Positions 5,743 to 14,355 of a DNA stretch of 42,932 nt are shown one piece after another (the first letter of the stretch is position 1; each line of letters starts with the position of its first letter). The translations under genes were made by a program, and so were the position numbers. The stretch lies in the IMG/VR virus record IMGVR_UViG_3300042402_001727, positions 1 through 42,932 of that record, one strand, 5' to 3'. Under the pieces are notes generated by a model. The model was not told where the DNA came from and searched no databases. It saw only the letters and a program-made list of their open reading frames with translations. The DNA is from a virus.

Positions 5743-5749
5743 ATTTTAT

Positions 5750-5828
5750 TCCGTGAAATCCAAGCATGGTGCAAGGACCTGACTGTTAATCAGTGATTAG
5801 GTGAGTTCGATCCTCACACACGGAGCCA
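5750..5828 (+). tRNA. tRNA-Asn (GTT), first copy
   Basis: Acceptor TCCGTGA/ACACGGA with one A-A mismatch, anticodon loop CTGTTAA, T-arm GTGAG/CTCAC, G73, CCA encoded. The D-arm is irregular. Confidence 0.87.
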
Positions 5829-5833
5829 AACAT

Positions 5834-5910: not shown

Positions 5911-5975
5911 TTTAGGATGCGAACAGCAAATTCAAAAATTCAACTTTTAATTGAAAAATAAGCATCCTGTTTTTA
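5911..5975 (+). ncRNA. Y-RNA-like element, copy A
   Basis: AGGATGC (5914-5920) pairs with GCATCCT (5962-5968). The conserved AACAGCAAA follows the 5' arm, and the 3' arm runs into GTTTTT. The loop is AT-rich (about 40 bases). One of seven copies with covarying closing helices; also ACAG could pair alternatively with CTGT. Confidence 0.6.
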
Positions 5976-11585: not shown

Positions 11586-11877
11586 AGACCCCGTCTACAC
11601 TTCTACGTTAAGGAAGTGCGTCATTACAGTAACGATAACTGTACGGTGCATTGGATCTACCGCAAGGCCCTATTTAAGGGCGACTTGAGAAATCACAAAG
11701 GCAGGGACGCTATCCTGTCTAAATAGAAAAGAACGTGGACAGAGTAACCGCTCAGTCTAGGGCTCCTGTGGTGGGAGTGGCTAGACACTTTATTGAAGCA
11801 CATACCCTACGCCCGATTAGTAAGGGAGATAGCGACTAAACGCTGAAGAAAGGTTTAAATGTGTTTCAATAAAGTAT
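11586..11877 (+). ncRNA. Large multi-hairpin RNA between tRNA-Asn and tRNA-Gly
   Basis: 292 bases without a gene but full of helices: CACTTC/GAAGTG (11598-11618), TACAGT/ACTGTA (11625-11643), GCCCT/AGGGC (11667-11681), CAGG/CCTG (11702-11717), GTCTAG/CTAGAC (11755-11786) with CTCC/GGAG inside, and a 16-bp helix CTTTATTGAAGCACAT (11788-11803) with 11859-11874 enclosing CCCT/AGGG and AGCG/CGCT. It ends three bases before tRNA-Gly. Comparable large ornate phage RNAs near tRNAs (such as GOLLD) are known, but I cannot assign it to a family. Confidence 0.6.
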
Positions 11878-11951
11878 GCGGGGTTAGTTTAGTGGTAAAA
11901 CGAGATCCTTCCAAGTTCAAGTCGCGAGTTCGATTCTCGCACCCCGCTCCA
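11878..11951 (+). tRNA. tRNA-Gly (TCC)
   Basis: Acceptor GCGGGGT/ACCCCGC perfect, anticodon loop CTTCCAA, T-arm GCGAG/CTCGC, T73, CCA encoded. The anticodon stem has two weak pairs. Confidence 0.9.
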
Positions 11952-11974
11952 AATTTTTAACTACAAAGGTATAT

Positions 11975-12205
11975 ATGGCATTTAAACAACTCAGTCGTGG
12001 TCCCAGTGTAGACATTGAAAAATGTGTCGAACTGTCAGGAGGCAACAGATTTGATTTAGTTATTATGGCAGCAGTTCGTTGTCGTGAATTGGCTAAGCAA
12101 CATCGCAAAGCCGAAAATGGTTCGCAACTAAATGCTCCGGTTACTGCACTGCTTGAATTCCAAACAGGCAAAATTGGAAAAGAATATATCAAACGAGTAG
12201 TATAA
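11975..12205 (+). CDS. rpoZ: RNA polymerase omega subunit homologue
   Basis: 76 residues, close to bacterial omega (about 80-90). Residues 11-37, SVDIEKCVELSGGNRFDLVI followed by MAAVRCREL, match the omega signature VxxCxxxxxNRFxLVxxAAxRARxL. The segment APVTALLEFQTGKIG near the end matches the omega TVxALxEIxxGKI stretch. Omega assists folding and assembly of the beta' subunit and is a ppGpp contact in proteobacteria. AAAGG precedes the ATG. It lies between two tRNA genes without its own promoter. A phage copy could replace host omega or alter promoter choice; that is inference. Confidence 0.85.
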   Translation: MAFKQLSRGPSVDIEKCVELSGGNRFDLVIMAAVRCRELAKQHRKAENGSQLNAPVTALLEFQTGKIGKEYIKRVV

Positions 12206-12212
12206 GATCAAG

Positions 12213-12288
12213 GCCTGGTTGCGCAGAGAGGTTATGCATCTCCTTTACACGGAGAACGATGTCAGTTCGAGTCTGACACCAGGTACCA
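12213..12288 (+). tRNA. tRNA-Val (TAC)
   Basis: Acceptor GCCTGGT/ACCAGGT, anticodon arm TCTCC-TTTACAC-GGAGA, T-arm GTCAG/CTGAC, A73, CCA encoded. Confidence 0.92.
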
Positions 12289-12295
12289 ATTAATT

Positions 12296-12372
12296 CGGAG
12301 TGTAGCGCAGTCTGGTAGCGCACCTGGTTTGGGACCAGGGGGTCCAAGGTTCGAATCCTTGTACTCCGACCA
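12296..12372 (+). tRNA. tRNA-Pro (TGG), second copy, bacterial-like
   Basis: Acceptor CGGAGTG/TACTCCG, D-arm GCGC-AGTCTGGTA-GCGC, anticodon arm CCTGG-TTTGGGA-CCAGG, A73, CCA encoded. The sequence is far closer to proteobacterial tRNA-Pro than the copy at 7265, suggesting recent capture from a host. Confidence 0.94.
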
Positions 12373-12403
12373 AAATATATTTTAGCAGTTTAGCCAAAAT
12401 GTA

Positions 12404-12432
12404 GTGACAAGACAGTGCAATACTGTTATAAT
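12404..12432 (+). promoter_or_regulatory. Promoter P7 of the Ro-like gene and elements E-G
   Basis: GTGACA (12404-12409), 17 bases, TATAAT (12427-12432). The transcript starts with a GCAAG-GAAA-CTTGC hairpin and then elements E, F and G before the ATG at 12943. Confidence 0.8.
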
Positions 12433-12461
12433 AGATACATAGCAAGGAAACTTGCAAAGAG

Positions 12462-12632
12462 TTTTAGGATCGGTACAGCAACATTCATATTACTATGGAT
12501 CGTTGGACCCTATGGTAGTTCGCTGGAGTTGAAGGGCTTGCCCGGAGACGTTGAAGGTGTCTATTGAAATAGACCAACAAGCACAGAGTGATGGCCTGTG
12601 TAAAATAAAAGCAGTCAACAACGATCCTGTTA
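12462..12632 (+). ncRNA. Y-RNA-like element, copy E (large loop)
   Basis: AGGATCG (12466-12472) pairs with CGATCCT (12622-12628), again covarying; TACAGCAAC follows the 5' arm. The 150-base interior has GTTGG/CCAAC (near 12502 and 12573), GGGC/GCCC, GTCTAT-TGAA-ATAGAC and CACAG/CTGTG hairpins. A second GGATCG at 12497-12502 could compete for the 3' arm. Confidence 0.58.
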
Positions 12633-12868
12633 GTTTTGGATGACTACAGCAATTTAAAATCTACTAACGTAATTGCTATAGACGGTGGTCGAAGGACAGG
12701 CAGAAATGTTTTCTAGAAATAGACGCTCAAGGAATAGATAGGCCGGCAAAGTCCGGATATGATTTACATACAGAAAAACATGTAATAGGCAACATGAATG
12801 TTGATAGGGTCTGGGTGCTATAATTGGCCAGACCAGAAAATAAACAAATTGGCACGATCATCCTGTTA
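12633..12868 (+). ncRNA. Y-RNA-like element, copy F (large loop)
   Basis: GGATGA (12638-12643) pairs with TCATCC (12858-12863); TACAGCAAT follows the 5' arm and TGTT the 3' arm. Inside: AGCAATT/AATTGCT, CCGG/CCGG, TTACAT/ATGTAA and GGTCTGG/CCAGACC hairpins. A TATAAT-like string near 12829 lies in the last loop and is not taken as a promoter. Confidence 0.55.
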
Positions 12869-12870
12869 AA

Positions 12871-12931
12871 GTTTTAGAATGTTAACAGCAACTTTAAATT
12901 TCATTCATATCGAAAATAAAATACATTCTGT
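12871..12931 (+). ncRNA. Y-RNA-like element, copy G, next to the SD
   Basis: AGAATGT (12876-12882) pairs with ACATTCT (12923-12929). The conserved GGAT/ATCC has changed to GAAT/ATTC on both strands, a compensated change. AACAGCAAC follows the 5' arm. The SD GAGG (12932-12935) begins within three bases of the helix, so protein bound to G could block translation of the Ro-like gene. Confidence 0.58.
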
Positions 12932-12942
12932 GAGGTAATAAA

Positions 12943-14355
12943 ATGAACGCATTTGTAACAGCAATCGCAAATCAAGAAGCCCGTACTGCCAATGGCATGA
13001 AGGCACGTAAGTCAACAGCCAAGGCTACAGTTGACCTGTTCTATAAGATCGGTGCAAGCCGTGGTAAGAACATTGTAGGCGACTTCACTGCCGCTTACGT
13101 AGAAAATTCAGACGTTGCACTTCGCATCGCACAATGGGCACGTGATGTCCGCGGTGGTGCAGGTGAACGACAAATCTTCCGTGACCTTTTGGTTCACTTG
13201 GAAAAGACTGACCCAGATGCCGCTTTGGCTTTGCTAAAGAAGGTGCCTGAAGTTGGTCGCTGGGACGACATCTTTGTCTTCTCAACCCCTGCACTGAAGA
13301 CAGCAGCCTACACAATGTTAGGTGATGCGCTTCGTGTGCGAAATGGTCTTGCCGCCAAGTGGACTCCACGTAAGGGCAAGATTGCGGCTGAAGTACGATC
13401 ATTCTTTGGAATGACTCCTAAGCAGTACCGCAAGTCATTGGTATCAATGACAACAGTTGTTGAAACACAGATGTGTGCCAACGACTGGGATAACATCAAC
13501 TTCTCGCATGTTCCATCTGTGGCTGCTCGCAACTACAAGAAGGCATTCGGACGTCACACACCTGCATTTGCAGAGTACGTGGCCAAGTTAGTCAGTGGAG
13601 ATAAGACTGTCAAGGTTAACGCCAACGCAATCTTCCCACATGATGTACTGAAGGGTGTTATCAACCACTACGGTATGGACTTGAGCAAGGTTGACACTGA
13701 CCACATTGTGGCACAGTGGGACGCTTTGCCAAACTACGTAGGTGAAGCAAGTATTCTACCATTGGTAGACGTTAGCGGTTCTATGTCCTGCCCAGCAGGT
13801 AAGAACAGTAACGTGACTTGCATGGACGTTTCAGTTAGCCTTGGCTTGTACTTGGCTGACAAGAACAAGGGTGTGTTCAAGGACACATTCCTTACATTCA
13901 GTGATAAGCCTGCACTGATGACCCTAAAGGGTAACGTAGTCCAAAAGGCTGCACAAATGGTTAAGAGTGATTGGGGGATGAGTACTAATCTACACGCTGC
14001 CTTCACTAAGATCCTTGACGTGGCTGTCAAGGGTAATGCACCACAAAGCGATATGCCAGCAATGGTGTTGATCCTGAGTGACATGCAGTTTAACCAATGT
14101 GTCAATCACGATGACAGTGCAATGGCGATGATCGAACGCAAGTTCGAAGCAGCCGGATACACATGTCCAAAGGTTGTTTTCTGGAACCTAAACGCAAGTG
14201 ATAACGTTCCAGTTAAGGCAGACAAGAGTGGTGCCGCTCTTGTTAGTGGATTTAGTCCAGCCATCATGGCTAGCTTGCTAGGCGCTGATGTGGATCAATT
14301 CACTCCAGAAGGTATCATGCTGAAGACTGTAATGGTTCCACGCTACGATATCTAA
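12943..14355 (+). CDS. Ro60/TROVE-like vWA protein (DUF2828 type)
   Basis: 470 residues with SD GAGG seven bases before the ATG. The N-terminal ~265 residues are helical and carry DUF2828-type signatures: ARDVRGGAGERQIFRDLLVHL (67-87), PEVGRWDDIF (102-111), ETQMCANDWDNINFSHVPSV (174-193) and FPHDVL. A von Willebrand A domain follows, with a MIDAS motif DVSGSMS at 276-282 and a later LSDMQF. A helical repeat ring plus vWA is also the architecture of Ro60/Rsr (TROVE), which binds Y RNAs and misfolded RNAs. Kinship of DUF2828 with TROVE is inferred from architecture. The leader holds three copies of the repeated RNA element, which are likely ligands. A UUCG terminator follows. Confidence 0.75.
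   Translation: MNAFVTAIANQEARTANGMKARKSTAKATVDLFYKIGASRGKNIVGDFTAAYVENSDVALRIAQWARDVRGGAGERQIFRDLLVHLEKTDPDAALALLKKVPEVGRWDDIFVFSTPALKTAAYTMLGDALRVRNGLAAKWTPRKGKIAAEVRSFFGMTPKQYRKSLVSMTTVVETQMCANDWDNINFSHVPSVAARNYKKAFGRHTPAFAEYVAKLVSGDKTVKVNANAIFPHDVLKGVINHYGMDLSKVDTDHIVAQWDALPNYVGEASILPLVDVSGSMSCPAGKNSNVTCMDVSVSLGLYLADKNKGVFKDTFLTFSDKPALMTLKGNVVQKAAQMVKSDWGMSTNLHAAFTKILDVAVKGNAPQSDMPAMVLILSDMQFNQCVNHDDSAMAMIERKFEAAGYTCPKVVFWNLNASDNVPVKADKSGAALVSGFSPAIMASLLGADVDQFTPEGIMLKTVMVPRYDI

Follow-up and report, generated by a model that had tools for sequence, protein, structure and literature searches.

Large structured RNAs of phages include GOLLD and ROOL, which often lie near tRNA islands, GOLLD being composed of a conserved region and a less conserved one (PMC12286853). 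RNA C and RNA D of phage T4 have been described as RNAs whose function is unknown, with Northern blots as a check (PMC9697503). Few phage RNAs of comparable size and intricacy are known, and an established function is still lacking for GOLLD, ROOL and T4 RNA C and D alike. Here we describe an uncatalogued RNA family that sequence evidence places within the tRNA gene arrays of hundreds of uncultured phage contigs, the same evidence establishing its existence, conservation, fold and restriction to phages. The reading that we favour, at what we would call an even chance, is that it represents a stable, trans-acting phage RNA whose release is linked to that of tRNAs and which binds a component of translation or tRNA handling as a scaffold.

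The RNA lies in a 42.9-kb virus record, which was analysed as a whole (the window) and across which 35 tRNAs are called; the parts described between 11510 and 11951 are on the + strand. Its conserved core (subfamily 1), delimited with covariance models R1 and R2, spans about 204 nt (11588–11790). The best positional analogues are T4 rnaC (species 1) and rnaD (species 2), which lie in a phage tRNA cluster as the core does, rnaD only one base from tRNA-Arg. The T4 RNAs are, however, 119–139 nt long compared with about 204 nt for the core, and homology was rejected: with filters off, the best score of R1 and R2 on the T4 tRNA cluster was 8.0 bits, at a site outside both rnaC and rnaD. GOLLD resembles the window locus in combining a conserved with a less conserved part (PMC12286853), but many of its members exceed 800 nt, and the core differs from GOLLD and ROOL in being built of tandem H-type pseudoknots. 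Nor does the core have the length of several hundred nucleotides expected of these two families, some cores being bounded by tRNAs on both sides. The Rfam search proposed in the first-pass annotation, carried out with Rfam 15 at the gathering score across the whole window and at E up to 10 over 11300–12950, returned no known family for the RNA, GOLLD and ROOL included, and the caution with which that annotation had treated both names was well placed.

An RNA family in phage tRNA arrays

The first-pass annotation had described a single large, ornate non-coding RNA of about 290 bases between two tRNA genes. Its placement was exact: tRNA-Asn(GUU), with an encoded CCA, occupies 11510–11585, its 3' end forming the 5' boundary of the core, and the array continues with tRNA-Gly(UCC) at 11878–11951 (both by ARAGORN and Rfam). 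The absence of a coding frame also held, with no ORF of more than 40 aa overlapping 11586–11877. This interval folds to −96.6 kcal/mol, compared with −73.8 kcal/mol in dinucleotide shuffles (sd 5.4, z −4.2, 0/200). Several helices of the simple energy fold are not conserved. The 290 bases turned out to comprise two units rather than one, namely the core (11588–11790) and a 3' cassette (11787–11875).

Relatives were gathered with the downstream gene (12943–14352) as bait, which yielded 80 related loci; in a blastn comparison with these, the RNA was conserved as far as query position 218 or so, the last domain being variable. A pattern derived from the most conserved part then matched at least 120 IMG/VR stretches (subfamily 1), and a contig carrying two copies gave access to a diverged subfamily 2, likewise found in at least 120 IMG/VR stretches, on contigs of up to 524 kb; because the contigs, whose completeness is uncertain, are metagenomic and in several cases near-identical, these counts do not amount to independent events. 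The bait loci and the first pattern yielded 99 trimmed core sequences, 83 of which make up alignment A1. The window core, which was among the training sequences of the subfamily-1 model R1, scores 187.7 bits along the entire length of that model. R2, built independently for subfamily 2, likewise matches the RNA of the window from end to end (11590–11787; 42.6 bits, E 4.8e-12, E-values being rough), and each of the 16 subfamily-2 contigs tested gives in turn an R1 match to the RNA. Among fifteen large contigs, R1 detected one copy in 13, two in one and none in G007, a contig picked for its Ro-like protein. Compensatory changes, together with two subfamilies that are both present in 120 or more stretches of viral contigs, thus support the claim of a large, ornate phage RNA among tRNAs more strongly than the first-pass annotation could.

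Since all loci were reached through one array-near protein or through core patterns, divergent or differently placed relatives would have been missed. In 84,980 prokaryote genomes a first core pattern matched nothing, and a shorter one found a single match, truncated by a contig end (L222), on a 3-kb contig of a cyanobacterial MAG that is possibly a misbinned phage contig. Searches of cultured-phage records by blastn with both subfamilies gave chance matches only. We found no earlier description of the RNA in the open-access literature, and one may exist elsewhere. One further locus (L103) is peculiar in that the 5' half of its core cannot be aligned to the other members and seems to have been swapped for other sequence.

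Conserved fold of the core

Covariation supports a core in which four H-type pseudoknots stand one after another, with two conserved hairpins on their 3' side. In an all-against-all covariation scan, which was given no structure and which used a G statistic with average-product correction, the top ranks were taken by the closing hairpin, stem S2 of pseudoknot 3, S2 of pseudoknot 1, S1 and S2 of pseudoknot 4 and the short H1 stem, with columns that do not form base pairs mixed in, and the helices recovered cross in the manner of H-type pseudoknots. On A1, the 60 proposed pairs have 81.4% of cells paired and show changes on both sides in 46 of 60 cases; the covariation score is 0.404 compared with 0.186 in shuffles (sd 0.005) and at most 0.159 with slid partners, values that come from the same sequences that yielded the structure and from shuffles that do not preserve relatedness.

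Pseudoknot 1 (11592–11618) consists of S1 (11592–11594/11605–11607) and S2 (11598–11603/11613–11618). Pairs of S2 rank 4, 12 and 14 in the scan and one S1 pair ranks 33; all six S2 pairs change on both sides, S1 being weaker with 73.5% of cells paired, and an alignment-free pseudoknot search of individual sequences gives 22.5 for this segment against 7.6 in shuffles. Pseudoknot 2 (11619–11643; S1 11619–11621/11632–11634, S2 11625–11630/11638–11643) is less uniform in the same search, with 15.1 against 2.9 in shuffles and, under the stem-length limits used, none found in 11 of 47 distinct segments; support for its S1 is moderate. Pseudoknot 3 (11644–11698; S1 11644–11647/11659–11662, S2 11651–11656/11692–11698) carries an inserted hairpin (11663–11687). 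Two of its S2 pairs rank 3 and 7 and an S1 pair with a pair fraction of 0.99 ranks 37, and on A1 94.3% of S1 cells and 77.7% of S2 cells are paired. The lower A1 scores of pseudoknot 1 S1, of pseudoknot 2 and of part of the pseudoknot 3 hairpin reflect segment lengths that vary among types and the poor alignment of pseudoknot 2. Pseudoknot 4 (11699–11736; S1 11699–11706/11713–11720, S2 11707–11711/11732–11736) has pairs at ranks 6, 11, 22 and 29, its S2 being 82.4% paired on A1 with changes on both sides in 3 of 4 pairs.

The pseudoknots are followed by the most conserved segment of the RNA, UGGACAGAGUAACNGCUCA (11737–11754), which is also kept in subfamily 2. It contains a stem of two pairs (11741–11742/11751–11752), paired in 100% of A1, and a GUAAC loop; positions 11743 and 11750 exchange A.G for G.A, a non-standard change that ranks 9 in the scan. 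This GUAAC hairpin may bear some likeness to the GTPase-associated centre of 23S rRNA. The closing hairpin (11755–11786), with 11 pairs and a UGUGGUG heptaloop, has pairs at ranks 1, 2, 5, 10 and 19 when all column pairs are compared, and 99.9% of its cells are paired. The subfamily-2 alignment covaries at S1 and S2 of pseudoknot 1, S2 of pseudoknot 2, the pseudoknot 3 hairpin, S2 of pseudoknot 4 and the closing hairpin. The four pseudoknots are invisible to a plain secondary-structure reading, and the simple minimum-free-energy structure was rejected, since relatives do not keep its long-range helix (28 of 83 pair 11594/11785 and 20 of 82 pair 11598/11779).

Runs of pseudoknots are found in other RNAs. 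The upstream pseudoknot domain of tobamovirus RNA likewise comprises consecutive pseudoknots, beside a tRNA-like element, although its biology is different from the phage setting of the core. Type III antitoxins are RNA pseudoknots too, possibly arranged as 'beads on a string', and counter anti-phage RNases (PMC5772629). By analogy, the core could be a decoy or antitoxin mimic whose chain of pseudoknots neutralises a host ribonuclease, either a type III toxin of the ToxN kind or a defence enzyme that cuts tRNAs, which we hold to be unlikely but worth keeping in view, and we give the same modest weight to the outcome that it would have, the protection of phage translation. The series of H-type pseudoknots is indeed shared with ToxI-type RNAs, and a setting in a tRNA array would be compatible with a conflict over tRNAs. 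ToxI, however, is built of 36-nt repeats, whereas the four pseudoknots of the core are unlike one another in sequence and length and the core has no direct repeats, so that it lacks the tandem near-identical units of the type III antitoxin RNAs. The neighbours of the core, moreover, are tRNAs, and no toxin gene was noticed as a partner, though no dedicated search was made.

Boundaries of the core and the 3' cassettes

The limits of the core are set by tRNAs. Where a tRNA lies close upstream, as in 46 cores, its encoded CCA and the start of the core are no more than about 10 nt apart, irrespective of the identity of that tRNA (Thr being commonest). On the other side, the next tRNA begins no more than 25 nt past the closing hairpin in about a dozen cores; one core begins 4 nt after tRNA-Ala and ends 5 nt before tRNA-Met. 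The flanking tRNAs differ among loci on both sides, which makes a role in cis for one particular gene unlikely.

Where the next tRNA does not directly adjoin the core, one hairpin-closed cassette, or sometimes two in tandem, follows on its 3' side. The cassette of the window (11787–11875) is an inverted repeat with arms at 11787–11803 and 11859–11875. Its terminal helix had been noted in the first-pass annotation, correctly as to its presence and single G-U; we count 17 base pairs instead of 16, and two bases instead of three between the helix and tRNA-Gly. Among 73 distinct 3' tails, 61 close with at least 11 bp. As the cassette is missing wherever a tRNA adjoins the core, and as the window's type also occurs away from the core, at 7 places in other arrays, we regard 11787–11875 as a separate unit, contrary to the earlier assignment of this last domain to the same RNA. 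Some longer 3' cassettes (L031, L060, L190 and others) contain a T-loop-like segment, GGTTCGATTCC, which lends them a tRNA-like look inside the closing helix.

The core could also be a nuclease-resistant spacer that insulates tRNA processing units from one another, or blocks exonucleases, and that has no partner of its own; it lies inside the array and abuts a tRNA 3' end, and further gaps of the window's array hold hairpin-closed non-coding pieces. Invariant loop letters and a usual number of one copy per contig would nevertheless be unexpected of a mere spacer, and an element of this sort is lacking at most of the array's tRNAs; we think this explanation distinctly unlikely. The hairpin-closed pieces between tRNAs of the window, at 6236–6303, 7649–7753 and 8073–8234, have relatives in other arrays, and a related locus (L218:1590–1789) shows a group I intron match in its array, between tRNA-Asp and tRNA-Met.

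Candidate roles and neighbouring elements

On the reading that we prefer, 11588–11790 would be transcribed within the tRNA array and the core RNA freed by the same enzymes that process the tRNAs on either side, a release that we infer from the tRNA-set boundaries; its stability and its action in trans are inferred as well. The freed RNA of about 204 nt would fold into four H-type pseudoknots and hairpins with GUAAC and UGUGGUG loops, and this compact scaffold would act in trans during infection, binding a component of translation or tRNA handling, instead of regulating a neighbouring gene. That the target belongs to the translation or tRNA-handling machinery is our guess, favoured by the array setting, the invariant loops of the hairpins and a use of several pseudoknots that recalls tmRNA.

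A rival reading links the core to tmRNA (SsrA), which likewise contains several consecutive pseudoknots. The core itself is not a tmRNA, as models of tRNA and tmRNA give no match within 11586–11877 and an acceptor/T-arm domain and a tag are absent, but it could supply a pseudoknot piece in trans to, or otherwise partner, the phage's own permuted tmRNA, for which we see a slim chance. Permuted alpha-type tmRNA matches are present in 15 of 16 contigs tested, 5 of them above the cut-off (in the control, this model gave a signal in Caulobacter only), whereas RF00023 found nothing above its cut-off in 15 contigs; in related loci, nine genes for permuted tmRNA are called by ARAGORN, and AGAGUAAC and UGGACAG are common to the core and some permuted tmRNAs. 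These shared letters are, however, missing from part of the tmRNAs, the permuted genes lie elsewhere in the contigs, apart from the core, and two-piece tmRNAs elsewhere are not known to require a third RNA. Similarly slim is the prospect of a new class of RNA machine, in which the four-pseudoknot RNA and the permuted tmRNA would join on the ribosome for private ribosome rescue or translation control; if true, large phages would have such a system of their own, assembled from RNAs whose genes lie within the tRNA array and close to it.

Least probable of all, and in our view highly improbable, is that the core serves as a Y RNA for the Ro-like (DUF2828) protein, whose gene lies at 12943–14352: the two are neighbours, and databases and one phage record label the protein family RNA-binding or Ro-sixty related, but such a role is made unlikely by the absence of the protein from 6 of 14 RNA-bearing large contigs (including the 343 kb G003 and the 278 kb G005), six protein-bearing cultured phages lack an R1 match, this pattern of co-occurrence in contigs and cultured phages ruling out an obligate pairing, and YrlA (RF02553) has no match over 11586–11877, its weak full-length match (27.6 bits, below the gathering score) lying elsewhere in the window's array, at 8549–8669.

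For the RNA family as a whole, the compact fold, backed by covariation in two subfamilies, and the tRNA-set boundaries make in vitro synthesis, probing and imaging directly feasible. Permuted tmRNA, Y-RNA-like elements and hairpin cassettes occur in the same arrays, which makes the purpose of large-phage tRNA arrays testable.

Several neighbouring elements deserve mention in their own right. Circularly permuted tmRNA genes with plausible tags were seen in L101, L208, L209, L211, L236, L240, L248, L269 and L294 and in contigs G001–G025. The YrlA-like stretch at 8549–8669 contains tRNA-like parts in permuted order and belongs to a repeated array element, TTTAGGATnnnNACAGCAAA ... nnnATCCTGTTTT, with similar copies near 5914–5971, 6463–6521, 7427–7489 and 12466–12867; elements of this type may serve the Ro-like protein as Y RNAs. 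The gene for that protein, 1.1 kb downstream of the RNA, corresponds to PHROG 850 ('RNA-binding protein') and Pfam DUF2828/DUF7788; a search by sequence found no solved structure for it, and its AlphaFold2 model (pLDDT 47) was not usable. Directly 5' of it, about 570 bases of conserved non-coding sequence (12372–12942) recur in most related loci and include an extended −10 promoter-like site (12404–12432). Tucked between tRNAs at 11975–12205 is a small ORF with a match to RNA polymerase Rpb6/omega (27.1 bits, cut-off 26), and tRNA-like stretches that ARAGORN does not call are present at 5743–5833, 11107–11211 and 7170–7254, the last scoring 44.1 bits as tRNA-Sec, slightly under the gathering score of 47.
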